Both the position numbers and the translations under genes were made by a program. The notes beneath the pieces were generated by a model. It worked only from the letters and a program-made list of their open reading frames with translations. It made no database searches and was not told where the DNA came from. A stretch of DNA of 64,000 nucleotides, taken from positions 1 through 64,000 of the IMG/VR virus record IMGVR_UViG_3300020204_000009, one strand, 5' to 3'. Shown one piece after another: positions 5,549-47,705 of the stretch. Source of the stretch: a virus. Position 1 is the stretch's first letter, and every line of letters starts with the position of its first letter.

Positions 5549-5869
5549 ATGGCAAAAAGCAACATTAGCACAGGTATTGAACAATTGGTAGGTGCTCGTT
5601 CCACACCCAGCGAAAAGCAGATAGAACAACATGAACGTGCTTGGAGAGATATACGAAATAAGCTCGATTCTATGTTGATCGGCACCAATGTCATCAAAGG
5701 TGACACAGTGCGAAAGCAATGCCAAGAATTAGACAGCCTCGACCAAGAAGGCAGATACAATCATATCGTCGCCCGCTGGGGAAAGCAGTACGCCGAACGT
5801 TCCCGGCCTTTGCTGCATCAGCTTGACTCTGTAGAGCGAGAAATTGCCAGATTTAAGTCTGAAGACTAG
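5549..5869 (+). CDS. Hypothetical charged helical protein (106 aa)
   Basis: The protein is hydrophilic and helix-rich with heptad-like Leu/Ile spacing toward the C-terminus (LLHQLDSVEREIARF). The ATG is preceded by TTGGGGATCACA, a moderate site. It converges with the deaminase-like gene, overlapping its 3' end by 17 bases. No family recognised. Confidence 0.6.
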   Translation: MAKSNISTGIEQLVGARSTPSEKQIEQHERAWRDIRNKLDSMLIGTNVIKGDTVRKQCQELDSLDQEGRYNHIVARWGKQYAERSRPLLHQLDSVEREIARFKSED

Positions 5870-6833
5870 GCGGGATCTCTAAAGATTGCCGTTTTAATGC
5901 ATTGATAGTATTATCATATGCAATCTGCCGCATAAATTCACATTGCCATTCGGTAATCCCGAATGATTTGGCATATTCAAATTCTTTAGCCAGCGTAGTT
6001 CCACATTGAACCGGATCGTCGCTACCCAATGTAGTTCGTAATCCGGCTTGCAACATTTTAGTAATTGGATGAAATGCTGGATGCGGCCAGACGCCTGTTA
6101 CATAATTACTGGTCAACGATAGATCAAATGTAATTCCTCGCTCGATTGCAGCTTGGACAAATTCCGGATAATCAACAATCTTGATGCCATGGGCAATATT
6201 TGATACCCCTAACTCCATTATCGAATGGAAAATATTCGCTGCTGATTGTGATTCGCCAACATGTGCTCGTGTGATTTTTCCGGCAGCATGCCAATCATGA
6301 AATAACGGCTTATAAAACTTACTATCGAAGTAAGCCTCATCCCCTACAAGATCGATTCCCAATAAACATTCAGCTACTTCAGCGTTCTCGATGAGTTTAG
6401 CGTATTGCTTTTGGCTAGCCCGCGTGCTTTCGTATTTGATGGACAGAATTAGTCCAACACCACCGGGTCGATGGCGTTCGAATGATTCGTGAATAAAATG
6501 GATGGCTTGATGTTTATGCCATCCTATGTTCATGTACTTGTTAATCGAGAAATCGATCCAAGCATAACCAACGCCTTGTGCGTCGAGAAATCTACAGACG
6601 GCTGCGATGGACTGATCGATTAATGCCTCAGTCCATCGCAGTTCATCCAAAATCCTGAATTTATCGAGAAACCGGTGAAAATCACGCGGTTCTCCATCAG
6701 TGAACATCATCTGACTGCATACATCCTCATAGGATTCTGCCAAATGTTTCAAATTGAGATCTTGAATCACTTGCCAGACAAATTCTGGTGGGATACAACC
6801 GCCAAGATGTAAATGAGGATCTATAACAACCAC
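5853..6833 (-). CDS. Adenosine deaminase-like amidohydrolase (326 aa)
   Basis: Metal-binding DPHLHLGG (5-12), RAHVGES (189-195), NIAHGIKI (212-219) and the catalytic GSDDP (270-274) match the adenosine/AMP deaminase family. SLTSNYVTG (239-247) matches the family's substrate-side strand. Length is near the usual 330-350. It probably deaminates an adenine nucleoside or nucleotide, or a modified form. In a phage this would act on the purine pool together with the PurA/PurZ-type enzyme at 41-42 kb. The substrate cannot be told from sequence. Confidence 0.75.
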   Translation of the reverse strand: MVVIDPHLHLGGCIPPEFVWQVIQDLNLKHLAESYEDVCSQMMFTDGEPRDFHRFLDKFRILDELRWTEALIDQSIAAVCRFLDAQGVGYAWIDFSINKYMNIGWHKHQAIHFIHESFERHRPGGVGLILSIKYESTRASQKQYAKLIENAEVAECLLGIDLVGDEAYFDSKFYKPLFHDWHAAGKITRAHVGESQSAANIFHSIMELGVSNIAHGIKIVDYPEFVQAAIERGITFDLSLTSNYVTGVWPHPAFHPITKMLQAGLRTTLGSDDPVQCGTTLAKEFEYAKSFGITEWQCEFMRQIAYDNTINALKRQSLEIPPSLQT

Positions 6834-10844: not shown

Positions 10845-11279
10845 TCATTTAATGCGATCAATAAGCTGTCGCACATTGTGATATAATTTTAGCCCCTTCA
10901 TATCGGCTAATTTAAACCATCCGAGAGCCGCAAATTCGTGGTTATTTTCCAATCGTTGATTAGACGATGTAACCTTACAATGAATGAACGCGACCCCTTT
11001 TTTAGTCGATAGTTGTATGGGCTTTCCGACTGCCCTGCAACGGATATTAGTTTCTTCTCGCACTTCCCGAACCACCGCTTCTTCTGGTGATTCTCCACGT
11101 TTGAGGTGTCCGCCGGGAAACACCCATTTGCCTGCTCGGTCATCATCAGTGTTGCGAGCTAACCCCAATAACCATTTATCGTGCCATCGGACTATACCAA
11201 CTGCCGCCTTGAAGTCCTCTTTAAAGGCTTCAGTAAGTACAGAATCGAGAATGCCGTCAAATTCTAAAAGTAAAGCCAT
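10845..11279 (-). CDS. Nudix hydrolase (144 aa)
   Basis: The Nudix box is GGHLKRGESPEEAVVREVREETNI, matching GX5EX7REUXEEXGU through REVREET. The N-terminal AVGIVRWHDKWLLGLARN strand pair and the EFAALGWFKLADM end also fit. The substrate is probably a nucleoside diphosphate derivative, perhaps an oxidised dNTP or a nucleotide sugar. The ATG at 11279 fits the usual length; the frame is open to an ATG at 11381 that abuts the divergent gene. Neither start has a strong site. Confidence 0.8.
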   Translation of the reverse strand: MALLLEFDGILDSVLTEAFKEDFKAAVGIVRWHDKWLLGLARNTDDDRAGKWVFPGGHLKRGESPEEAVVREVREETNIRCRAVGKPIQLSTKKGVAFIHCKVTSSNQRLENNHEFAALGWFKLADMKGLKLYHNVRQLIDRIK

Positions 11280-11386
11280 ATCGCTATATTTGTCAAAGAT
11301 ACTGTAATTCTTAACAGCCTGACAATGCACCGCAACGGAAATGTATTGGGGATTTGGACCTAATAAACCAAACCAGGACATTCAGA

Positions 11387-13827: not shown

Positions 13828-15138
13828 ATGTTGCACCACCATGTAGTTCGAAATTCGAAACCAAATGTGATTATTATAATCACCGACCAGCAGCGTTTCG
13901 ATGCTGTTGGCTATGTTAATCCAAATATTATTACTCCGAATCTTAATAAATTAGCCAGCGAATCCGTGATTTGTGCAGAAGCATTTGTACAAAGCCCCCA
14001 ATGTCAGCCGAGCAGAGCATCAATATTGACTGGTCGTTATCCCACCGCTCATCGAGTGTGGTGGAATGAAACCAAACTGGCTCCAACTGAATTGACTATT
14101 GGGAACTATTTCGAGGCGGCTGGATATTCAACTGGATATTTTGGTAAATTGCATATTGATGGAGATTCAGATTATACATCGGTTGCGAAGCACTTTGGAT
14201 TCCGACATACGTTTCTGTCCGAAGATTGGCAGCTAATGGCTACCGGCAAACTATTGCAGACCGGAAAATCGATTCCTAACAGAATCAGAGAAGAATTCTT
14301 CGGGCCGATGGCGACCAAAACGTGGGTTGGTCAGTTAAGTAATCGATCTCTGCATCATGAAGATATGATTACAACAAAGGCCGTGGAATTTATCCAGTCT
14401 CAAACTGAGCCGTACTTAGCAGTCATTAGTTATAATGGGCCACATCCTCCATATGCGGCTCCGACAGAATTTAGTCAACTCTACGATCCATCGACTCTTT
14501 CGGTACCAAAAGAGCGGGTCCCAAATTTAATGGGCCATGTATTATCGTCATCCGAATGGCGTGAATTAAAACGCCAATATTATGGAGCCGTGTCTTGGAT
14601 TGATGATAATGTTGGACGTATCTTGAGCATTGACCAGTCAGCGATTGTGGTCTTTCTATCGGATCATGGTGACATTTTAGGTGATCATGGCCTATTTTCT
14701 AAGGGGATCTTTGCTTACGATGGTAATATTAGAATTCCATTATTATTTAAAATCCCTGGCGTAAACCCGTCTGATTACCGGCATTTGGTACAGACTATTG
14801 ATATACTTCCAACATTACTACATGCTGTCGGGGTCGGAGGAACACCCGGAATTCAAGGAAAATCGTTATTGGAGCATTTTAAGTCAGATACGGCTGCTAA
14901 TAATTATGTGATTAGTATGTTATGCCATAGTCAGCGGTTACGAATGATCCGCACTAAATCTTGGAAATATTGGGTTCATGGGGCTAGAGAGTTCCTCTAT
15001 GATCTACAGAACGATCCGTCTGAGGAGCGGAACATAGCCCATTCAGGGAAACATGCTTTACATGCAGCTAGGTATGGTTTGCTGCAAGCACTCATACACT
15101 GTGAAGATCCGTTGCCGCTTCCGCGACCGGTTTATTGA
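13828..15138 (+). CDS. Sulfatase with formylglycine motif (436 aa)
   Basis: NVIIIITDQQRFDAVGY near the N-terminus carries the metal-binding Asp of type I sulfatases. The maturation motif C59-Q-P-S-R63 within SPQCQPSRASILTGRYP is complete, and FLSDHGDILGDHGLF supplies the second metal cluster. The enzyme would remove sulfate esters from a sugar or small molecule after Cys59 is converted to formylglycine by FGE or a radical-SAM maturase. No signal peptide is evident, so it may act in the cytoplasm or ride in the virion. With the sulfotransferase fusion at 2.3 kb it implies handling of sulfated glycans. Confidence 0.85.
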   Translation: MLHHHVVRNSKPNVIIIITDQQRFDAVGYVNPNIITPNLNKLASESVICAEAFVQSPQCQPSRASILTGRYPTAHRVWWNETKLAPTELTIGNYFEAAGYSTGYFGKLHIDGDSDYTSVAKHFGFRHTFLSEDWQLMATGKLLQTGKSIPNRIREEFFGPMATKTWVGQLSNRSLHHEDMITTKAVEFIQSQTEPYLAVISYNGPHPPYAAPTEFSQLYDPSTLSVPKERVPNLMGHVLSSSEWRELKRQYYGAVSWIDDNVGRILSIDQSAIVVFLSDHGDILGDHGLFSKGIFAYDGNIRIPLLFKIPGVNPSDYRHLVQTIDILPTLLHAVGVGGTPGIQGKSLLEHFKSDTAANNYVISMLCHSQRLRMIRTKSWKYWVHGAREFLYDLQNDPSEERNIAHSGKHALHAARYGLLQALIHCEDPLPLPRPVY

Positions 15139-15144
15139 CCGGTC
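15125..15144. terminator. Shared bidirectional hairpin at converging genes
   Basis: GACCGG and CCGGTC pair around an 8-base loop. The loop contains the TGA of the sulfatase gene (15136-15138) and the TAA of the dUTPase gene (complement of 15132-15134). One small stem therefore lies at both transcript ends. Confidence 0.5.
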
Positions 15145-15701
15145 GAACCAAAACCACCTTCTCCGCGTTTGGTTTCGCTGACTTTGGCTTCTTTTACGAT
15201 TGCTTGATAACAGGGTGCTAGTACACCCTGCACGATCCGTTGACCATGTTCGATGGTGATTGGTTCAATATTTCGATTAAACACACATGCGAACACTTCA
15301 CCACGGTAGTCAGAATCAATGATTCCGACTGAGTTTGCGAGCATAAGACCTCTGGCTCCCATGGATGATCGCATAAAAAGTTGGAGTACAAAGCCGGGGT
15401 TGAACTCGCATTTGTACCCAAGGGATATCATTACTGTTTCATTGCATGTCAAGATCAACTTGGGTTTAGATTGTCCCGGTTCACTACGGTGTGAGACACC
15501 TGCGTGTTGTGACGGAGCTTTGGAAACCCGCGATCCGGCGTCGGTGGCATAGAAATGAGCTTTGTCACCATGTGAGTCTACGTGCATACATGGACGAGTA
15601 AGGCACGCTGAAAAATCGATCCCGGCAGAATGTTCTGTCCCGTATGTGGGAGTGTTTAAATCGTTCTCCGGAAACGGTTCCAATATTAACCACACTGTCA
15701 T
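15132..15701 (-). CDS. dut: dUTP diphosphatase (189 aa)
   Basis: All five trimeric dUTPase motifs are visible in order: TEHSAGIDF (1), MRSSMGARG (2), GIIDSDYRGEV (3), GQRIVQGVL (4) and the P-loop-like RGEGGFGSTG at the C-terminus (5). About 45 extra residues sit between motifs 1 and 2 (DSHGDKAHFYATDAGSR to RSEPGQSKP), making it longer than the usual 150. AGAGGGTGAT precedes the ATG. It hydrolyses dUTP to dUMP, feeding ThyX next door and keeping uracil out of DNA. Confidence 0.9.
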   Translation of the reverse strand: MTVWLILEPFPENDLNTPTYGTEHSAGIDFSACLTRPCMHVDSHGDKAHFYATDAGSRVSKAPSQHAGVSHRSEPGQSKPKLILTCNETVMISLGYKCEFNPGFVLQLFMRSSMGARGLMLANSVGIIDSDYRGEVFACVFNRNIEPITIEHGQRIVQGVLAPCYQAIVKEAKVSETKRGEGGFGSTGQ

Positions 15702-15751
15702 ATCACCCTCTTTAGGAGAGCATTTTGATACACATACCATAATTAGGCGAC

Positions 15752-16624
15752 CTATGATTTTTTACGTACTAGTTCAGCTTCAAGTTGTTCTACCGAGAGT
15801 TCGCTGAGCATCACGTCGGCGGTCTTTTCGTATGGCTGCATTCGCATATCACTGACTTCGATGATGCCATCAACGACCGTTTCGACGGCTCCGTGAAAAA
15901 TCGTTGGGTATTTCTCTTTGAGGATCAAATAAATCTGCTCAAAGACGAGCCTGATTTCCCATTCTGAATGGCGACCGGTCCGTATCATGACCGTATGACG
16001 CAGGGTTCGCAAGTTAGTTGAAAACCCGATTTCGTTTGTTTGACCGTTGGGGGTGATTCTTCGAAGAGCGGATGTGATCTTTTTCTTGGTGGTGAAATCG
16101 CTCATTTGGTCCAATTGCATTTTTTGGACCATGCTGGTATACTTCCCTTCGAGATAATACTGGATCTCTCGGAAATCTTCTCTGACTGCTTCAAGAATAG
16201 GATCGAAAACAATATCGATCTCGTCCAGTCGAATATAGCGGCCACTATTCTGAGAGAATGCGGTGCCGATACGGTGGCGGACCAACTCGTGGGTAAAGAC
16301 GCGGCTACAGTCGGCGATGAGAAAATTGAATCCGACGTGCTCGAAGATCGACCCATGTCCTACGTCGAAGCAACCTTTGAGATTGTCGGAAATGTCGCGG
16401 ACGCGAGTGATATTAGCGTTTTTGCCGAGCGTGAGGCTCTTGTAGCACAATTTGGCGAACATGCTACAGAGGATTTCGGCGTTGGAGACACCAGCTTCTC
16501 TTGCTTCAATAACTGATTGCCAGAAATCCTCGTTGCCGCTGTCTTTCAGGTACCGTTGAATTTCGCTGTCATTGGTTTCTGTATACCCGACCCAATAGAC
16601 CTTTGGCGTTACAAGTTTACCCAT
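15752..16624 (-). CDS. thyX: Flavin-dependent thymidylate synthase (290 aa)
   Basis: The ThyX signature appears as ELVRHRIGTAFSQNSGRYIRL (116-130 core) with HGSIFEH at 90-96 and a downstream LRTLRHTVMIRTGRHSEWEIR helix. It converts dUMP to dTMP using FADH2 and methylene-tetrahydrofolate. Length is somewhat above the usual 220-250, with extra N-terminal residues. It lies upstream of dut and downstream of the RNase HI pair in one leftward unit. Confidence 0.9.
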   Translation of the reverse strand: MGKLVTPKVYWVGYTETNDSEIQRYLKDSGNEDFWQSVIEAREAGVSNAEILCSMFAKLCYKSLTLGKNANITRVRDISDNLKGCFDVGHGSIFEHVGFNFLIADCSRVFTHELVRHRIGTAFSQNSGRYIRLDEIDIVFDPILEAVREDFREIQYYLEGKYTSMVQKMQLDQMSDFTTKKKITSALRRITPNGQTNEIGFSTNLRTLRHTVMIRTGRHSEWEIRLVFEQIYLILKEKYPTIFHGAVETVVDGIIEVSDMRMQPYEKTADVMLSELSVEQLEAELVRKKS

Positions 16625-32858: not shown

Positions 32859-33488
32859 TTAAAAATCGATTTTTATCCAATAGCAACCATGCTTTTGCAA
32901 ATAAGCCATTGCATTATTACTAATTTTTGGTGATGCGATATATCCAATTGTTTTTATTTTATTCCCCTGAAATGATTCTAAATATCGCTGTAATTGAGAA
33001 CAATGATTAAGAACAGCAGTCGTACGCTTTGCTTCTACAATATGGTACACATTGTTTGTGTCGATTCCTAAGAAATCGATAGGCCCTAAATTACTTTGAT
33101 ATTCTGTATAAATGAGTTCCAATTCAACATCAAAATAATCATACCAATTGTCAAATAATTTTTGAACAAGATCTTTTTCTGTTTTTGTAATTGACACAGA
33201 ATTATCTGACCAATTTAATAATGGTGTATATGATAATATGTTGTGAATGATAATTGTTATAGTTTCAGACTTACGCCTTGATATCAGGCTGTTTCCATTG
33301 TATTCAAGCTTCGCACCTGGCCCCTGATAATTGCAGGGCGGATTTTTGGTTGAACTATGAATTAATAATGTTCCATCTGATTTATGAATGATCAGATATT
33401 GACCGCGTTCGAGCGAGGAATCGGCTCGCCCCGAATAATATACTTCACATTCTGCATATAATACCAACGCTGATTTTGGGTCGATCAT
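32859..33488 (-). CDS. nucS: NucS/EndoMS-like mismatch endonuclease (209 aa)
   Basis: The N-terminal binding domain has AECEVYYSGRADSSLERGQYLI and KSDGTLLIHS. The nuclease core has GPIDFLGID (D138) and HIVEAKR (E152, K154), the PD-(D/E)XK-type catalytic triad of NucS, then QLQRYLESF. In archaea and actinobacteria NucS cuts both strands at mismatches. A phage version could reduce mutation or attack foreign DNA. It lies at the end of the leftward unit with the membrane protein and the giant vWA gene. Confidence 0.85.
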   Translation of the reverse strand: MIDPKSALVLYAECEVYYSGRADSSLERGQYLIIHKSDGTLLIHSSTKNPPCNYQGPGAKLEYNGNSLISRRKSETITIIIHNILSYTPLLNWSDNSVSITKTEKDLVQKLFDNWYDYFDVELELIYTEYQSNLGPIDFLGIDTNNVYHIVEAKRTTAVLNHCSQLQRYLESFQGNKIKTIGYIASPKISNNAMAYLQKHGCYWIKIDF

Positions 33489-39688: not shown

Positions 39689-40126
39689 TTAGGCTTGATT
39701 TAACCACTTCTTGAGCATGCGGAGTAGCCGTAACTGCTCACGCCGAGCGGCGACATTGGTATCGAAGAGACAGGATTCCGGCATCCATTCATTATCAGAA
39801 TTTGAATAGAAAAATTCGCCGGTGTCTTTACTTCGAATAAGATCACAAACCACGAATGGTTCAATCACTAATCGAGATGTGATGAGGCTAGTGAGTAATG
39901 TGAAGTCTGCGTGATGAACGCGGGGAAGCAGAGCCGTTGAACTTGATTTCCAAACTAATCTATATGGGCCACGCTCATATAAAACTTTTGGATGATGGTC
40001 AGTCATCCATTTGTCATCCTCTTCGATTTCAGGAACTGCTTCCTTTGGACGTAGAACCACCCACCACGCGGTATCTCCTACCTTGTAGCGTGCTAATTCT
40101 AGTACACTCTGTATTCTGCCACGCAT
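39689..40126 (-). CDS. Hypothetical protein (145 aa)
   Basis: The product begins MRGRIQSVLELARYKVGD and has WWVVLRPKEAVPEIEED, suggestive of a small beta barrel-like first half. It is separated from its upstream neighbour by 6 bases. No family recognised. Confidence 0.6.
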   Translation of the reverse strand: MRGRIQSVLELARYKVGDTAWWVVLRPKEAVPEIEEDDKWMTDHHPKVLYERGPYRLVWKSSSTALLPRVHHADFTLLTSLITSRLVIEPFVVCDLIRSKDTGEFFYSNSDNEWMPESCLFDTNVAARREQLRLLRMLKKWLNQA

Positions 40127-40132
40127 GTGATC

Positions 40133-40348
40133 TCATCCACAGATCACCCTATTCAGTGCCTGGCTGACTATCTGCTCCGCTATCGTTCGCTTAACGCCAG
40201 TCACAATAGGAGACCATGTTCCGTTTTGGTTAATCTCGATCTGGTGATCCCCCTCCATCACGCTCTGTCCGGACATCGGAGTTATCCGGACATTCGTTGC
40301 ACCCACTTCCTTTATTTGTCTGGTTGCAGTGTTTACATCAACGGCCAT
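40133..40348 (-). CDS. Small hypothetical protein (71 aa)
   Basis: MAVDVNTATRQIKEVGATNVRITP starts after GAGGTGAAAATT. It is followed closely by 39689-40126. No family recognised. Confidence 0.55.
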   Translation of the reverse strand: MAVDVNTATRQIKEVGATNVRITPMSGQSVMEGDHQIEINQNGTWSPIVTGVKRTIAEQIVSQALNRVICG

Positions 40349-40381
40349 AATTTTCACCTCACATTAGGTTTGAGACCGACT

Positions 40382-41164
40382 TTAGATAGCGTCAAGGGCT
40401 TCGAAAGCCGTCTTGAACGTTTCGGATCTAGTTAAAGCACTTCCGTGCTTTCTTCCAAGTGCTGGCTCAAGGAAATACCAACCACCGAAATTCGTGGTGT
40501 TGGCATCATTCAAAGTAGCCTGAATTTTGGTATCACCAAACCCTATCGGCTTATGCCCATGACCAATCTTAAAATCGTGAATATCTATCGCTCCGACATA
40601 TTGTTTCAATAATGTCCAATATCTGATGAATGGGTCTTGCGATTGTCTAATGATTAACTGGGCTGGGTCATATAATAATTTCCATCGCTTGAATTTGTTC
40701 AACCATTGAACAACATCCACTGGCCTATAAATAGAACTAGCGTGGGAAATCTCAAGCAGGGGTGTGATATTAGCAGAAATCGATCGTTCTGTGATCATAT
40801 GAAGCCAATCGCGAACATGCTTGTCCGCGTCTGGAGCTTCTAACCCGGTATAGATTCTAATATAGGATGCCCCAAAGTACGAAGCAACATCAAATACTCG
40901 GTCGATTGACTCTTTCGGAATCGATGACAACGTGTTTGCGGGAACCTGTCCAAGTTCCGACGCAACCATAATGACGGTAAGCTCGTGCGACTTGAATAAT
41001 GCCTTCAACGTCTGACACGATTGATCTGTAGCCGCACAAACATTGCTGGTCCATACGTGTCGAAGAGCGAGGTACGGAATCCCAAGCGATTTTAATGTAG
41101 CACAGCCGGTTTCTGGATCTTCACCGGCCTCATCAAGATATGCTGCTAATTTTAATGGCCGCAT
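40382..41164 (-). CDS. TIM-barrel sugar isomerase-like protein (260 aa)
   Basis: PLLEISHASSIYRP, LLYDPAQLIIRQ and GAIDIHDFKIGHGHKPIGFGD follow the metal-binding strands of xylose-isomerase-like TIM barrels (AP_endonuc_2/sugar phosphate isomerase family). Metal ligands E, D, H and E are plausible. It lies three bases downstream of the PurZ-like gene and may act on a sugar or a nucleotide sugar moiety. The reaction is unknown. Confidence 0.7.
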   Translation of the reverse strand: MRPLKLAAYLDEAGEDPETGCATLKSLGIPYLALRHVWTSNVCAATDQSCQTLKALFKSHELTVIMVASELGQVPANTLSSIPKESIDRVFDVASYFGASYIRIYTGLEAPDADKHVRDWLHMITERSISANITPLLEISHASSIYRPVDVVQWLNKFKRWKLLYDPAQLIIRQSQDPFIRYWTLLKQYVGAIDIHDFKIGHGHKPIGFGDTKIQATLNDANTTNFGGWYFLEPALGRKHGSALTRSETFKTAFEALDAI

Positions 41165-41167
41165 TTA

Positions 41168-42313
41168 TTACTCGACAAAGCATACGTGGTTGGTTTGGGG
41201 TCCGGTTCCTACTATAGTTACCGGCAGACCAACCAAATCTTCAATGTCAAGTATGAAATCTTTCACCTTACTCGGTAGCTTGTTATAATCATTAGTCCCA
41301 TAGCATGACCAATCGATATAGTTGGCAAAATTGAGGGCAATCTTCGTCGCCCCGTTCGCAGCCACGGCGTCCAGAAGTTGTAATTTGGAGAAAGTGAACA
41401 CCCGACGAAGCCGCTTGGTGACAGTGGTCAATTCGCCCTTCATAACATCTGGTGGTGCACCACCGGCGGCAGCTACTTCGGCCCACGTAATTTCACTGTG
41501 GTCATCGTAACAATCACCGGAATATCCAACCGTATTGCCGTCTTCAATGACGTTTCCCACGCGGATCGGATATGGTCTTATTACCAGATAAATATCGCCG
41601 ATGAGAGAATGTCCGATTCCCATATCGGCGACGTTCTGAACTGCGGTTGTTCCACGGCTGGTGCATTGTGGATAATGCGAACCGTGGTTGATATCGAGTG
41701 AGAACCCCTGTGATCCTTCATGCAGAGCGGTTTGCCCGTTTTGCAACAGGAATTTCAGAATCCGTGGAATTGACAGGTTCGCAGTGTTGCCGAGCTTAAC
41801 GGTGAGTTCGTTCATCCGGCCAACAAATTGTTGAAGCTCTGGATAATCGCGTGACAGCTTCAATTCCTTACGACGCATTACCTTGTCAGCAAGGAACGCC
41901 CCGCATCCTTGCATGGTGCTGGCGATGTGCTTTGTGCCGGTTTCGAGACTGGCTTCTTGCTGTTTGTGTGAGTCGAGAATGACTCCAGCACGTGGATGAA
42001 TGTGGGTGTTCTCTTGAACTCCGCAGATCTCGATTTCTTTCAGCATTTGGGCCATGTCGTATGCCGATGACGCTCCTACGACGATGGCCGGTGAATAGTC
42101 TGTGCACCATTTCTTGAGAATTGCCGCCGATGGTAGTGCTTTAGCGACAAAAGCTTCTCCATCAATGTTGACCGCCGTATGTCCGGCGTTGCTCATGTTA
42201 GTTGTCGAGATTATTTCGGGTCGGTGTCTGTCTGCTAATGCAGTTGTGATAAGCCCTTTGCCGCAACTTCCCCACTGTCCATCAGTAACAACATTAAATC
42301 GGCCACTCAACAT
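41168..42313 (-). CDS. purZ: Adenylosuccinate synthetase family, PurZ-like (381 aa)
   Basis: The nucleotide-binding start is DGQWGSCGKG (11-20); PurA has QWGDEGKG, with the catalytic Asp. Here that Asp is replaced by Ser16, the substitution reported for PurZ, which makes N6-succino-2-aminodeoxyadenylate from dGMP for 2-aminoadenine (Z) genomes. Other family blocks are NAGHT (42-46), EGSQGFSLDINHG (198-210) and TSRGTTA (217-223). Length 381 is shorter than PurA (about 430) and near PurZ. The usual partners DatZ and MazZ are not in the window. The subtype is therefore uncertain. Confidence 0.7.
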   Translation of the reverse strand: MLSGRFNVVTDGQWGSCGKGLITTALADRHRPEIISTTNMSNAGHTAVNIDGEAFVAKALPSAAILKKWCTDYSPAIVVGASSAYDMAQMLKEIEICGVQENTHIHPRAGVILDSHKQQEASLETGTKHIASTMQGCGAFLADKVMRRKELKLSRDYPELQQFVGRMNELTVKLGNTANLSIPRILKFLLQNGQTALHEGSQGFSLDINHGSHYPQCTSRGTTAVQNVADMGIGHSLIGDIYLVIRPYPIRVGNVIEDGNTVGYSGDCYDDHSEITWAEVAAAGGAPPDVMKGELTTVTKRLRRVFTFSKLQLLDAVAANGATKIALNFANYIDWSCYGTNDYNKLPSKVKDFILDIEDLVGLPVTIVGTGPQTNHVCFVE

Positions 42314-42388: not shown

Positions 42389-42775
42389 TTATCCGGTCGG
42401 TCGCAGGCGAGATGAAGTTGCGACATCATATCCATCGCCGTCCCACCCAGAAAGCTGAGCGGCGAAGTTCACTTCGTCGATCGTATCATTGCGATGTGCT
42501 CGTAATAGAGCTATAGCATCTGGCAAGTTCATAATTCTTACCAAGATGTCTTCAATATCACCATTTTCTGATCTGATAATCGATTGTACTGCAACTAAAT
42601 TTCGCTGCTGAAGAAATCTTTTGATACGTTGAGCAGTTTGAATAGCGTGCAGTTCTCGTGCTATCCGGTCCAGCGACGCGGCTGTAGATTTTCGCTGTGC
42701 TTCTAACCATTCATCGCTTCTGGTTAGAAGATCAGCGTCATCGCCGATTTCACTAATTAATGTCATTAGGCTCAT
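42389..42775 (-). CDS. Hypothetical helical protein (128 aa)
   Basis: The protein is mostly helical and charged, ending DGDGYDVATSSRLRPTG. It overlaps the zinc-ribbon gene by 23 bases. No family recognised. Confidence 0.6.
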   Translation of the reverse strand: MSLMTLISEIGDDADLLTRSDEWLEAQRKSTAASLDRIARELHAIQTAQRIKRFLQQRNLVAVQSIIRSENGDIEDILVRIMNLPDAIALLRAHRNDTIDEVNFAAQLSGWDGDGYDVATSSRLRPTG

Positions 42776-43109
42776 TGATTTTAACCCAGTGTTGTGGAAC
42801 CCAAATTTTCCGACCCATGACTTCGATTCGGTAGAATAGTGGCTTCACGTCACAAATGAGTGCAAATTCGTTGTACCATATATGTTCCGAATTGGTTACT
42901 TGAACCACATCTCCTATTTTTAATACCGCAAGACCATGTGGGTTTGTAATATTTTCGGCTAGAGCCGCTTCTCCAGAAAATATCCCAACAGTGCCCAGAT
43001 ACCCACATACGGGGCACGTGACACACAACCCAGTAGGACCAACAACCACTTCGTTTGAATCAATCTCGAATGAAATGGAACAGTTCGGGCATATGAGATC
43101 TTTATGCAT
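42753..43109 (-). CDS. Zinc-ribbon protein (118 aa)
   Basis: CPNC and CPVC, 29 residues apart (LICPNCSISFEI and VTCPVCGYLGTV), make a Cys4 zinc ribbon. The rest is beta-rich, with a C-terminal WVPQHWVKI. The ATG at 43109 sits in the stop region of the DeoC-like gene (8-base overlap). It recalls the zinc-ribbon protein at 28.2 kb. Confidence 0.65.
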   Translation of the reverse strand: MHKDLICPNCSISFEIDSNEVVVGPTGLCVTCPVCGYLGTVGIFSGEAALAENITNPHGLAVLKIGDVVQVTNSEHIWYNEFALICDVKPLFYRIEVMGRKIWVPQHWVKINEPNDIN

Positions 43110-43800
43110 CGAGTAATTCTCGAAGCTGATCCGGCTGAGACTGAAATTCTTTGATAATAGTCTTGGCTTGAGCGAGATTAACTCCAAATCTCGAAGCATT
43201 GGGGCATGCTGCCACTGACTTCAAACTGGCGATATTCCCACAAACCTTAACCGGCACCTTGATGATATCACGAACATATTGGATTTGCCGATTATGCTCG
43301 TCTGGGTTGGCTTTGCTTACTTGAAGTTTGAGTAGAGTATCAGTACGAACTAACGCCGGTGTCCTAACGGTTAATAGACCACGGCACATTGCCATGATGT
43401 TATCATCGTTTCGGAGCGAAGTTCCAAGAACAAATCGGACTTCCGTCGCATCTGACAGATGTTGTTTCACGAACTCTGTCAGTGCTTTGGATTCGATTCT
43501 CGTCTCTAATTCGAGCTTACTGGGAGTCAGCAAGAATTCGAAACCATCCGTTTCGAGAGAATCGGTTGTTAGACCCCGCATTTTGTTGACACCAAAGATC
43601 TCACCCTTCGGCCAATCAATTGGTGTGATGATCTTGAATTTGCCCCCAGCCCGACTCCTAGCAATGAGCGCGTCTGATGATAAACCCGGATGGACGACAA
43701 TGGCCGGGAATTTATATTTATGAGCAAGTTCTATAGATTCTTGAATCTCGTTCACTTGCATTACATCGATTTCTAATCGATTGAATACTGACCCACTCAT
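43102..43800 (-). CDS. DeoC-like TIM-barrel aldolase (232 aa)
   Basis: FPAIVVHPGLSSDAL, FKIITPIDWPKG, then VPVKVCGNIASL with a likely Schiff-base Lys and SRFGVNLAQA, fit the deoxyribose-phosphate aldolase/class I aldolase barrel. It could degrade deoxyribose 5-phosphate released by the deoxyribosyltransferase-like protein next to it. The ATGA overlap with that gene supports a shared pathway. Confidence 0.6.
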   Translation of the reverse strand: MSGSVFNRLEIDVMQVNEIQESIELAHKYKFPAIVVHPGLSSDALIARSRAGGKFKIITPIDWPKGEIFGVNKMRGLTTDSLETDGFEFLLTPSKLELETRIESKALTEFVKQHLSDATEVRFVLGTSLRNDDNIMAMCRGLLTVRTPALVRTDTLLKLQVSKANPDEHNRQIQYVRDIIKVPVKVCGNIASLKSVAACPNASRFGVNLAQAKTIIKEFQSQPDQLRELLDA

Positions 43801-44211: not shown

Positions 44212-45177
44212 TTATAATCTCTCAGCATGTGCAACAATTGTCGGCACAGATATTTTATGGTCCATTTTGTTGAAGCGTTCTACGAAGTTCCATGGGTTTT
44301 CTGATGAACAGAACGTGAATTTTTGTCTTTCGCCCTCGTTGAGAACATCTGCCGCATAATCGTAAAATTCGGCTTCTTTCTGGAAACGTTCCCTTCGAAC
44401 GTCTGGATTAACGTCTGGGTTGGTGCCATAGAAATGTAATTGCCCATTTAACCCAGCTGGATTCATGTCGCAACCGAATATGTAAATGTGAGTATAACTC
44501 ATCCAATACCCGAGTTGCATTGCTGCAAATACTGACGAACGCCCGATATGAAGCCCTTTTGTTAGGTCGCGGCTGAAGCCTTTGCCACCGAGATTCTTGA
44601 CCTGCAATGAATTCTCTTTTTGCCGCTTGATTCCGGTACTATTGAAGATCAGGCCATTGTAACCGGCCCATAAATCTTCATGACGTCGCATTTGAGATTG
44701 GTCAAAGAATGCCCAGTGAGTTGTAGGCCAAATACGAGCGTCGGGCTTATTAATCGACAATGTATGAATATTGGGATATCCTTTGAATTTCTCTAGTGGC
44801 ACTTCGTTGATTGAAGGACCATTCCCAATTATAATTAAAATCTTGTTATAACCATAATTCCTCAGTTGTTTGATTTTTACCAGCGAATCTGGGGTTATAT
44901 CTCGACTGGTATATTTTACATTTGGTACCTTCTTGATGGCATTTTTGCGAGTTACGTGCTGTTTAGATACAGCCGCCGCCACCGGGATTTGTGGTGCGGG
45001 CTGAGATTGTTGGATTTTAACATGGACTCGGCGGTTGTTCAATTCATTGAGATTTGCCGCCTGTCCGCTGGACGGCTTTACAACGATCTTTACAGACGAC
45101 GAAGGGGTCTTAACGACTGTGCGTCTTCGCACCAGTTGTGGGCGAACCTTCATTGTCACAATGTGATTGTTCGACAT
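44212..45177 (-). CDS. MptE/GT42-like Rossmann protein (321 aa)
   Basis: After an Arg/Lys/Gln/Ser-rich N-terminus, ILIIIGNGPSINEVPLEKF (about 105) and HIYIFGCDMNP resemble DUF115/MptE-like or sialyltransferase-like Rossmann folds. The same module forms the C-terminal half of the protein at 59.9 kb. It probably acts on a sugar nucleotide. It overlaps the upstream gene by 68 bases. Confidence 0.6.
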   Translation of the reverse strand: MSNNHIVTMKVRPQLVRRRTVVKTPSSSVKIVVKPSSGQAANLNELNNRRVHVKIQQSQPAPQIPVAAAVSKQHVTRKNAIKKVPNVKYTSRDITPDSLVKIKQLRNYGYNKILIIIGNGPSINEVPLEKFKGYPNIHTLSINKPDARIWPTTHWAFFDQSQMRRHEDLWAGYNGLIFNSTGIKRQKENSLQVKNLGGKGFSRDLTKGLHIGRSSVFAAMQLGYWMSYTHIYIFGCDMNPAGLNGQLHFYGTNPDVNPDVRRERFQKEAEFYDYAADVLNEGERQKFTFCSSENPWNFVERFNKMDHKISVPTIVAHAERL

Positions 45178-45486: not shown

Positions 45487-46275
45487 TCAGTTTGATTTAA
45501 TAACACGACGGCTGTCAGTGTGAAGGCGAAAACTGCGGTGAGAATCTGGGAGAGTCCCGGCCTTCATATCATCCATCAACTTGAACATGCCATTCTTTTG
45601 TGTTTTACGGCGGTTCATGATGCTGAACATGCAGCGGTGAATTGTAGTTGTAAGCAGATTGAACACTGGTGCCCTTCCGGGAGTATAGACCAGTTTCTTT
45701 GCTCGCAATTTATTGGTGACTTGAAGAAGAGCTTCGTTTGAAAAATCTAGCTGCTCTTCTTCGGACGGGAGATTGAATTTCATGGCAATGCCTTGGCAGA
45801 TTAAATTAACGTCTTCCAGCATCGCATGCCATGATTGTTCTGTTGGAATTTCGCGGATGTACCCATCATCCTGTAGTTTCGGAATGATCTCGTCGTATTG
45901 TACGAATATGTCAGTCTCAAGATGATGAATCTCTGAGTCCGAAAGGAGGGACAATTCTTCTGCTTGTGGAAGGACACGCAATGCGGTTTCTCCGTTGCGA
46001 TGCATCATTCCCTCCGCAGGAATCATACCATTATTGCTTTCGAAGTGGAAAGGCAGCCCGGTTGCGATACAATGCAGCCGTACAGGAGACATTGCGTCAG
46101 GCAGTGTTTTCCCGTTCTTCAGGATAGGTTGGCCATCTGCTCCGATAGCAACCCCGATCACTTTGGTCCACAGTAACCCAAGTGCACGGTACGGTTCCAA
46201 GTCGGGAACGGATGACGATAAAAGCCATTGGAACCAACTTTTCTCTAGCTTGTTCGAATCGCAATATTGACCCAT
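45487..46275 (-). CDS. Possible gp55-like sigma factor (262 aa)
   Basis: Starts MGQYCDSNKLEKSW after GGAGACAACC. The last third (ICQGIAMKFNLPSEEEQL, then TPGRAPVFNLLTTTIHRCMFSIMNRRK) resembles the core of T4 gp55-type late sigma factors: a helix, then xPFxYFTTIIHRxF and a basic end. The N-terminal 100 residues do not match that family. If right, it would direct late transcription, perhaps from TATAAATA-like sites. The match rests on a short motif. Confidence 0.4.
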   Translation of the reverse strand: MGQYCDSNKLEKSWFQWLLSSSVPDLEPYRALGLLWTKVIGVAIGADGQPILKNGKTLPDAMSPVRLHCIATGLPFHFESNNGMIPAEGMMHRNGETALRVLPQAEELSLLSDSEIHHLETDIFVQYDEIIPKLQDDGYIREIPTEQSWHAMLEDVNLICQGIAMKFNLPSEEEQLDFSNEALLQVTNKLRAKKLVYTPGRAPVFNLLTTTIHRCMFSIMNRRKTQKNGMFKLMDDMKAGTLPDSHRSFRLHTDSRRVIKSN

Positions 46276-46391
46276 GGTTGTCTCCTTGCCACAAAATCGT
46301 GTGATCAAAGGAGAGAAATACGACAGATTTCTTCTAGATCGAATAATCCATTGGTGTGCAACGTTCACGGGATGAACAAAGGAGTAACCGA

Positions 46392-47705
46392 GTGCCAATC
46401 ATCCGACAAATGCCGGGGCTTTATCTCCGGGGGTCTATCGCTAACATTACCATGGTGGGACTGTCTCCAGAGGAGAAAGCTCACATCGAGCTAGTTTTCG
46501 ATCACGTCATCCACCACGAAGAGATGGTGCGGCACAAACAGAAGGTTATGAAGGAATTTGGTGTCACAATTCGTGCCGACTATGCCGACGATCGAGCCGC
46601 CGCTGAGCAAGAATTCAATATCGCCGTCTGGCGTGGGCTTGTCAGCATCTTCTATCACCGCACTTACGAATTCGAATGTACGAATTGCGGCGCGACCGCC
46701 AGCCTGACCCAACGCGGCAAGCCCAAGCCCATCGACCGAATGGTAACTCCGTGCCCAGTTTGCCACATGGCTGAAATCGTTGACCCCGGATGCTCTGACC
46801 ACAATCCGGGCGATCTTGTCAATTACACCGAACTCCAAGAGCGTTATAAGCTCGTCGGGTTCGGGACGCCGACGTTCAAGAGCTGCATTCGGCCCATCCC
46901 GAAAGAGAAGAAATACGATAACCCAGACGAGATCATCGGGTGTCCCAAGCAGTTGAAACGATTCTTCGGCGAGTTCGTCTGGAATTACTTCCGCCAGCAG
47001 ATTAAAGAGAACAAGCGGAAAGAACACAACAAGACGCCGGTGGAAATCACTGGCCCAGCAGATCAAATGATCGTCGAACTCATCTTGAGTCTCTGCTCAC
47101 GAATGAATGTCGATTACAACCGGCACCACAAAGTCGAGCCGGTGAATGGCCGATACACGATCGATCTGCTTGGCCTGCTCACGCCACCGGAATTTTCGAT
47201 CGAACTCGCCCTTGTTCGAGTGTTGGCCGAAAGCCATGGAGTCGTCGTGACTACCACGGCTCAAGCGATCGAAATAGCAGTTCACCCTAATCCTCCGACA
47301 ATCAAAGTGTCGATAGTTCGTGCTGCGCATGTTACCATCATTGATAACCAACTGACCGTGACTGACGATGAAGAGAATTCGGGATTCTCAATCAGTCAAG
47401 TCAGTTACAAGACTGTAGGAGCAAGACGAATGGACCAAGATGATCACGTGCAGACCACAGATATCAGGGAAGCCGCGACTAGGACGCGGGCAGCACTTCC
47501 TGATGGAGATTGCCAATCTGTCTACGACATTTATTGTCAGATCGGACCAGTATACGATAAATTCTCTGAAGTCTACGGCAACGGAACGCCGAGAATTAAT
47601 CACATCGCTGATTTTCTCGGCATCACCGCACGAGCCGTGAAGCAGTGTCGCGATGTTATCCAAGTTCAGTGTCTTGCGAATGATTTCGTTCCGGCATCAA
47701 CTTAG
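46392..47705 (+). CDS. Zinc-finger protein with C-terminal HTH (437 aa)
   Basis: The GTG start follows AAAGGAG at the right distance. CTNCGA and CPVCHM (residues about 96-125) form a four-Cys finger. Around it NIAVWRGLVSIFYHR and FVWNYFRQQIKENKRKEH recall sigma-region-2-like helices split by an insert. RINHIADFLGITARAVKQC near the C-terminus is a helix-turn-helix. It may be a second transcription factor. It is clearly more GC-rich than its neighbours. The assignment is weak. Confidence 0.45.
   Translation: MPIIRQMPGLYLRGSIANITMVGLSPEEKAHIELVFDHVIHHEEMVRHKQKVMKEFGVTIRADYADDRAAAEQEFNIAVWRGLVSIFYHRTYEFECTNCGATASLTQRGKPKPIDRMVTPCPVCHMAEIVDPGCSDHNPGDLVNYTELQERYKLVGFGTPTFKSCIRPIPKEKKYDNPDEIIGCPKQLKRFFGEFVWNYFRQQIKENKRKEHNKTPVEITGPADQMIVELILSLCSRMNVDYNRHHKVEPVNGRYTIDLLGLLTPPEFSIELALVRVLAESHGVVVTTTAQAIEIAVHPNPPTIKVSIVRAAHVTIIDNQLTVTDDEENSGFSISQVSYKTVGARRMDQDDHVQTTDIREAATRTRAALPDGDCQSVYDIYCQIGPVYDKFSEVYGNGTPRINHIADFLGITARAVKQCRDVIQVQCLANDFVPAST

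Follow-up and report, generated by a model that had tools for sequence, protein, structure and literature searches.

A PurZ-group synthetase in a conserved operon of large T4-like phages: a probable variant of the Z-DNA pathway with a differently built nucleotide-pool arm

Introduction

Phages that carry 2-aminoadenine (Z) in place of adenine in their DNA are, in the literature surveyed, small siphoviruses and podoviruses which encode DpoZ or PrimPol together with one of two sets of pool-control enzymes. In the canonical Z-cluster of phiVC8, S-2L and SH-Ab 15497, the synthetase PurZ is accompanied by DatZ and MazZ (PMC8342488). In the PurZ0 system of Gordonia and Arthrobacter phages, the set consists of DutZ, DmtZ and DUF5664, the pool being controlled by DmtZ, of the NDT superfamily, and DutZ, of the dUTPase family (PMC12884076). 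Here we analyse a purZ-group gene and its operon in a 64,000-nucleotide stretch of viral DNA (hereafter the window), which forms positions 1 to 64,000 of the IMG/VR virus record IMGVR_UViG_3300020204_000009, a fragment of 157,281 bp without end repeats, and compare them with the corresponding loci of 13 IMG/VR relatives. The observation is real, conserved and not due to chance, and it probably reflects a variant of the Z-DNA pathway in large T4-like phages with a differently built nucleotide-pool arm. If so, finding a Z system in phages that measure 150-356 kb and encode a DNA polymerase III (PolIII) would extend this chemistry to large T4-like viruses, would add a third route to the clearance of deoxyadenosine triphosphate (dATP), and would prompt one to ask how Z is copied by a replicase of the PolIII type. 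Part of this reading is testable now, as the related phage vB_BpsS-140 (DSM 29700) is in culture. A 2025 paper on a "large aquatic phage lineage" makes no mention of the purZ-operon genes.

The synthetase and its phylogenetic placement

The gene lies where the first-pass annotation had placed it and is read from the minus strand, the plus strand in this region being full of stop codons.

41168-42313, minus strand: purZ-group synthetase, 381 residues, with Ser16 at the position of PurA Asp13 and with Thr296 and Asn331 as in PurZ

The protein, which starts with MLSGRFNVVTDGQWGSCGKG, matches the PHROG PurZ family at 2.6e-62, and its best NCBIfam model is the PurZ model NF038379 (4.7e-65, 219.7 bits), followed by archaeal-type PurA (211 bits). 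Among PDB entries it matches Pyrococcus PurA at 2.4e-39 and S-2L PurZ at 7.5e-38. Judged by these profile and sequence matches, the similarity to the PurZ/PurA families is far above chance.

The replacement of the catalytic Asp of PurA by Ser in the motif QWGSCGKG, which had been taken as a PurZ mark in the first-pass annotation, is present: Ser occupies the PurA Asp13 position in the window protein and in 13 of 13 IMG/VR relatives (one of which, L020, is an N-terminal fragment only), and Asp is found there in all PurA controls. Relative to these controls the clade shows the changes typical of PurZ, namely D to S at position 16, G to T at 296 and D to N at 331, so that the PurZ-specific substrate residues S23, T273 and Q/N308 of S-2L are all found in the window protein as S16, T296 and N331. 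The S-2L PurZ pocket, with residue roles taken from PMC8342488, is likewise kept, including Ser16, Val252, the T296-T299 loop and Arg303. The exceptions are Y203, which corresponds to Q216 in the window protein and varies across the clade (Q/H/E/F/T), and G130, which corresponds to Ala131. The Asp with which PurA reads guanine is Asn331 in the window protein, as in the ATP-using PurZ of phiVC8, and this suggests the use of ATP; the PurA controls retain Asp at both the catalytic and the guanine-reading site, and PurZ0 retains it at the latter.

A tree of 46 sequences, with 39 Ser-type rows and including the window protein and nine IMG/VR relatives, separates the Ser-type enzymes from the Asp-type PurA (support 100/99). 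The window protein and the nine relatives (54-70% identity) form a single clade (100/100), found only in large phage contigs of 30-356 kb. This clade is the sister of classical PurZ (phiVC8, S-2L, SH-Ab 15497 and others; 98/94), and PurZ0 branches outside both. The tree position and the PurZ-type residues therefore place the enzyme in the PurZ group, in line with its first-pass identification as PurZ-type, and as the curated cut-off of NF038379 is not reached, sequence classification makes it a new sister clade rather than PurZ sensu stricto. In a published survey, all phage Ser-type enzymes group as PurZ (PMC12884076). The enzyme resembles canonical PurZ in its Ser-type site, its pocket residues, the Asn at the ATP-base position, the PurZ loop insertion and its sister position, but differs by an identity of only 34-37% and by a PurA-like C-terminal region.

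Ser-type PurZ-like genes, possibly encoding a cellular PurZ, are also found on chromosomes of uncultured gut Firmicutes and Tenericutes (genomes G014-G026). At four of these bacterial loci (L041, L043, L053, L084) the gene is fused to a NUDIX domain, and at others (L044, L054-L057, L062) a NUDIX gene lies directly upstream; in L041 it stands amid housekeeping genes (cca-like, DnaD-like, endonuclease III, penicillin-binding protein, RecA). Several genomes with a bacterial Ser-type gene show no full-length Asp-type PurA, these being incomplete metagenome-assembled genomes.

A conserved purZ operon

The synthetase gene is part of an operon whose order is the same in nine lineages, that of the window included. 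In the direction of reading, the members around purZ are as follows.

45487-46398, minus strand: conserved operon protein with no assigned function
44212-45177, minus strand: conserved operon protein with a weak MptE-like match, 321 residues
43797-44174, minus strand: NDT-superfamily protein resembling deoxynucleoside monophosphate (dNMP) N-glycosidases, 125 residues, with a DNPH1/MilB/NDT fold; candidate sink for deoxyadenosine monophosphate (dAMP)
43102-43800, minus strand: protein with a predicted deoxyribose-5-phosphate aldolase (DERA) fold, 232 residues
42753-43199, minus strand: small zinc-ribbon protein, operon member, true start uncertain
42389-42775, minus strand: conserved operon protein with no assigned function, about 125 residues, directly upstream of purZ
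40382-41164, minus strand: xylose-isomerase-like TIM barrel (PF01261), 260 residues, directly downstream of purZ
40133-40357, minus strand: small conserved operon protein
39689-40126, minus strand: conserved operon protein with no assigned function, 145 residues

Neighbouring genes overlap or almost touch, which suggests that they are co-transcribed, and SbcC-like and helicase genes sit upstream of the operon. The NDT-like gene lies upstream of purZ in 12 of the 13 relative loci (8 distinct lineages), the only locus with a broken upstream part being L014, in which it is not adjacent; the DERA-fold gene is present in all 13, and no complete cassette lacks it. In the protein with the weak MptE-like match, GNGPS and GRSSVYASMQ-type motifs are strongly conserved. 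In a 356-kb relative (L015, 13661-21124) the purZ cassette adjoins a cluster homologous to positions 74536-82999 of the window phage, with RecA-like, PolA-like and other genes.

Profile comparison links the NDT-like family to MilB, BlsM and NDT, and the predicted model (predicted local distance difference test score, pLDDT, 90.7) has its best fold matches in MilB, DNPH1 and NDT. Tyr5 and Glu76 are invariant in the family. The protein thus shares with DNPH1/Rcl and MilB the predicted fold as well as the Tyr and the catalytic-Glu motif (GTHVELG versus GTHVEIG), at an identity of only 13-23%. Its identification as an orthologue of DmtZ is unsupported, since the two have a superfamily and a predicted fold in common and no direct sequence match.

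For the 232-residue protein, no Pfam or PDB sequence match was obtained by profile, and the likeness to aldolases comes from the predicted fold only. In the model (pLDDT 84.4) this fold is clear: DERA structures make up nearly all of the top 50 matches, with a best E-value of 4.3e-12 and a template modelling score of 0.75. When strands are matched with E. coli DeoC, with equivalences read from strand order and not from superposition, Lys201 corresponds to Lys185, and the position of Asp102 is not Asp. The protein resembles DeoC in the predicted fold, the FPHG/WPKG loop and the Lys201 equivalent, but differs in an Arg for the Schiff-base Lys, in the loss of Asp102 and in the missing Pfam and PDB match, and on this model aldolase chemistry is doubtful. 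The pairing of the NDT-like and DERA-fold proteins nevertheless suggests a role in processing deoxyribose 5-phosphate, which is what a dNMP N-glycosidase produces. Neither of the two genes has a match among 50,697 phage records.

Pool-control genes

DatZ was found in none of the 14 records, i.e. the window record and the 13 relatives, and was detected in 5 of 5 positive-control phages. MazZ-1/DUF550 was likewise found in none of the 14, with four positive controls detected, by a model that does not cover MazZ-2 (phiVC8 type). The general MazG and YfbR-like families gave no match in the same records, and DUF5664 was not found either, in a weak test that detected no control. DatZ and MazZ had been reported missing from the window in the first-pass annotation, which proposed a search of the full genome; over the whole 157 kb neither DatZ nor MazZ-1 is found. 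The record is a fragment that lacks end repeats, and some relatives extend to 356 kb, so that absences seen here alone would be weak evidence, but those of DatZ and MazZ-1 hold across all 14 records. Other genes of nucleotide metabolism are present in the window record.

5853-6833, minus strand: adenosine-deaminase family protein (PF00962, 1.3e-33)
10845-11381, minus strand: NUDIX hydrolase, candidate deoxynucleoside triphosphate pyrophosphohydrolase
15132-15740, minus strand: dUTPase-family protein, 202 residues, with an insertion after motif 1 and a uracil hairpin of canonical length
15752-16624, minus strand: ThyX thymidylate synthase
154776-155825 of the record, outside the window, minus strand: PurB homologue, 349 residues (PDB PurB, 1.8e-64), with a GSSSMPHKRNP loop

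The adenosine-deaminase-like enzyme already noted in the first-pass annotation is thus real; overlooked there were the NDT-like and DERA-fold neighbours of purZ, the dUTPase, the NUDIX hydrolase, the PurB homologue and a second, PolA-like polymerase (below). Adenosine-deaminase and NUDIX genes co-occur in five genomes, the window's own 157-kb record (G000) and the relatives G005, G007, G008 and G012, mostly close together. The window dUTPase was rejected as a DutZ because of its canonical hairpin. The same four relatives encode a dUTPase with a shortened uracil hairpin, like DutZ, a mark that is itself drawn from two DutZ sequences. G008 has two dUTPase-family genes (82095-82481 and 151977-152300), one with the shortened, DutZ-like hairpin and one bearing the insertion. 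The PurB homologue qualifies as an adenylosuccinate lyase by homology and by its catalytic-loop signature; it is without most of the C-terminal domain, and the end of its gene slightly overlaps a convergent GNAT-like gene. PurB-like genes are also encoded by Gordonia PurZ0 phages and by the PurZ0 phage Archimedes.

The window phage differs from the canonical Z-cluster in having no DatZ, no MazZ-1/DUF550 and no recognised DpoZ beside purZ, and from the canonical Z phages in being a large T4-like phage. The closest logic is that of the PurZ0 system, in which NDT-superfamily and dUTPase-family proteins likewise stand in place of DatZ and MazZ and in which Archimedes also has a phage PurB. However, PurZ0 forms a separate clade, the hairpin of the window dUTPase is of the canonical type, no sequence similarity is detectable between the NDT-like protein and DmtZ, and a DERA-fold gene is added here; by the sequence comparisons run, the parts are not orthologous. 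The distinct variant of the Z pathway suggested in the first-pass annotation is well supported by the clade, the residues, the controlled absence of DatZ and MazZ-1 and the non-canonical operon.

Polymerases

Two polymerase genes are encoded in the record beyond the window.

67045-69783 of the record, outside the window: PolIII alpha, with a PDIDLD motif
79624-80916 of the record: small divergent PolA-like polymerase (g100), 430 residues

No recognised DpoZ adjoins purZ in the window phage, and the PolIII alpha of the first-pass annotation exists, outside the window. Its statement that PolIII stands instead of DpoZ is nonetheless too simple and was rejected, because the PolA-like gene is present too, and is kept in most of the larger relatives. 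Alignment of the PolA-like protein with DpoZ by hhalign gives a probability of 88.7% over the palm region, with TxSGR-type and HDS motifs in common; the protein is so short that no room is left for an exonuclease domain, and a PDB sequence search with it gave no match. Either the PolIII alpha or the PolA-like protein may be the one that replicates the genome.

A cultured relative and restriction-site evidence

The best match to a cultured phage is the PurZ of Bacillus phage vB_BpsS-140 (MH884512), with 37% identity over the full length. The two phages have in common the Ser at the active site, PolIII alpha (the use of PolIII by vB_BpsS-140 is reported in PMC6375668), dUTPase, ThyX and RecA, and both lack DatZ and MazZ-1. 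They differ in that vB_BpsS-140 is a 55-kb siphovirus in which no match to the NDT/DERA operon was found and which has an adenylate kinase gene. According to PMC6483233, DraI cut the DNA of every phage of the set except vB_BpsS-140; in the passages found there, PurZ is not commented on. The genome has 21 DraI and 24 EcoRI sites, and the reported resistance at an A/T-only site is compatible with Z in its DNA. GGCC and CGCG are absent from this genome (0 observed against 65 and 46 expected, respectively).

In the 157-kb record, 6-bp palindromes consisting of G and C only are very strongly avoided: just 2 occur where about 198 are expected. Those containing A and T are much less depleted. Such depletion was rejected as evidence for Z-DNA and is not counted, because phages without PurZ show similar gradients and the proven Z phage S-2L shows none.

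Proposed pathway and alternative explanations

In the pathway proposed, the PurZ-type enzyme would join Asp to deoxyguanosine monophosphate (dGMP), probably with ATP, to give succino-2-aminodeoxyadenylate (dSMP), from which PurB, supplied by the phage homologue here and by the host in the relatives, would remove fumarate to yield the Z monophosphate (dZMP). Host kinases would convert dZMP to dZTP, which the phage replication machinery would take in place of dATP. The NDT-like and DERA-fold pair may meanwhile clear dAMP, splitting it into adenine and deoxyribose 5-phosphate with subsequent disposal of the sugar phosphate, and in several members the NUDIX, dUTPase-family and adenosine-deaminase enzymes may trim what is left of the pool. 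We infer specificity for dGMP and this flux, and Z is likely to be present in the phage DNA. A more specific version, which we offer tentatively, is that of a third, independently assembled Z-DNA system in uncultured large or jumbo T4-like phages, in which an N-glycosidase encoded in the purZ operon and a repurposed DERA-fold partner would deplete dATP at the monophosphate level, and a PolIII-type replicase would copy genomes of up to 356 kb.

Several observations weigh against a Z pathway of this kind. Ser-type enzymes are also encoded on chromosomes of gut Firmicutes, so that the Ser alone is no proof of a Z genome, and the synthetase, at 219.7 bits, misses the curated NF038379 cut-off of 300 bits. 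None of the 13 relative records contains PurB. A phmmer search with two DmtZ sequences matches nothing in the 157-kb record, and the NDT-like protein therefore cannot yet be called DmtZ; its partner has, by strand order, Arg152 at the position of the Schiff-base Lys167 of DeoC, and may thus not be an aldolase. In PMC6483233, EcoRI cut all phage DNAs, that of vB_BpsS-140 included, at A-containing sites, which calls for caution, and the DraI digest may simply have failed. Lastly, some A-containing sites still look counter-selected in the 157-kb record, which lacks GGATCC (0 observed versus 31-44 expected) and in which CTGCAG is rare.

One alternative is that PurZ is active but substitution only partial: if DatZ is lacking and the polymerases are non-selective, dATP would never be cleared and the DNA would be a mixture of A and Z. 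The missing DatZ, the lack of a clear DpoZ orthologue beside PolIII alpha and the small PolA-like gene, the vB_BpsS-140 DNA that resists DraI yet is cut by EcoRI (PMC6483233) and the continued avoidance of some A-containing palindromes in the 157-kb record would all agree with this. We nevertheless hold it to be unlikely, as the operon encodes a candidate enzyme for the removal of dAMP, and NUDIX, adenosine-deaminase and DutZ-like proteins are further present in several members. It is improbable that dZMP or ZMP is made for another purpose, such as interference with host replication or a nucleotide-based defence: no signalling effector was recognised, and the operon adjoins the replication and recombination genes for SbcC and a helicase, much as in known Z phages purZ neighbours replication genes, although Ser-type enzymes do occur on bacterial chromosomes without phage context, some fused to NUDIX, and the operon retains several proteins without assigned function.

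The two remaining alternatives concern the reaction itself. An ordinary adenylosuccinate synthetase, converting inosine monophosphate to succinyl-AMP and raising the adenine supply as a phage PurA does, would fit the PDB match of similar strength to archaeal PurA and the missed NCBIfam cut-off. This is very improbable, because the clade has lost both Asp13 of the catalytic site and the Asp that confers GTP specificity, has PurZ-type residues, and is set apart from all Asp-type enzymes in the tree. That the enzyme acts on guanosine monophosphate or another purine nucleotide and feeds a different base modification is hardly to be expected either, given that the dGMP-pocket residues are kept except for G130 (Ala), with Val252 next to C2' retained, even if the position of S-2L Y203 varies in the clade.

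Other genes in the window

The window also carries a NucS endonuclease (32859-33488), two radical-SAM/SPASM proteins, a sulfatase and Volactin, and several glycosyltransferases and methyltransferases are encoded in it as well.
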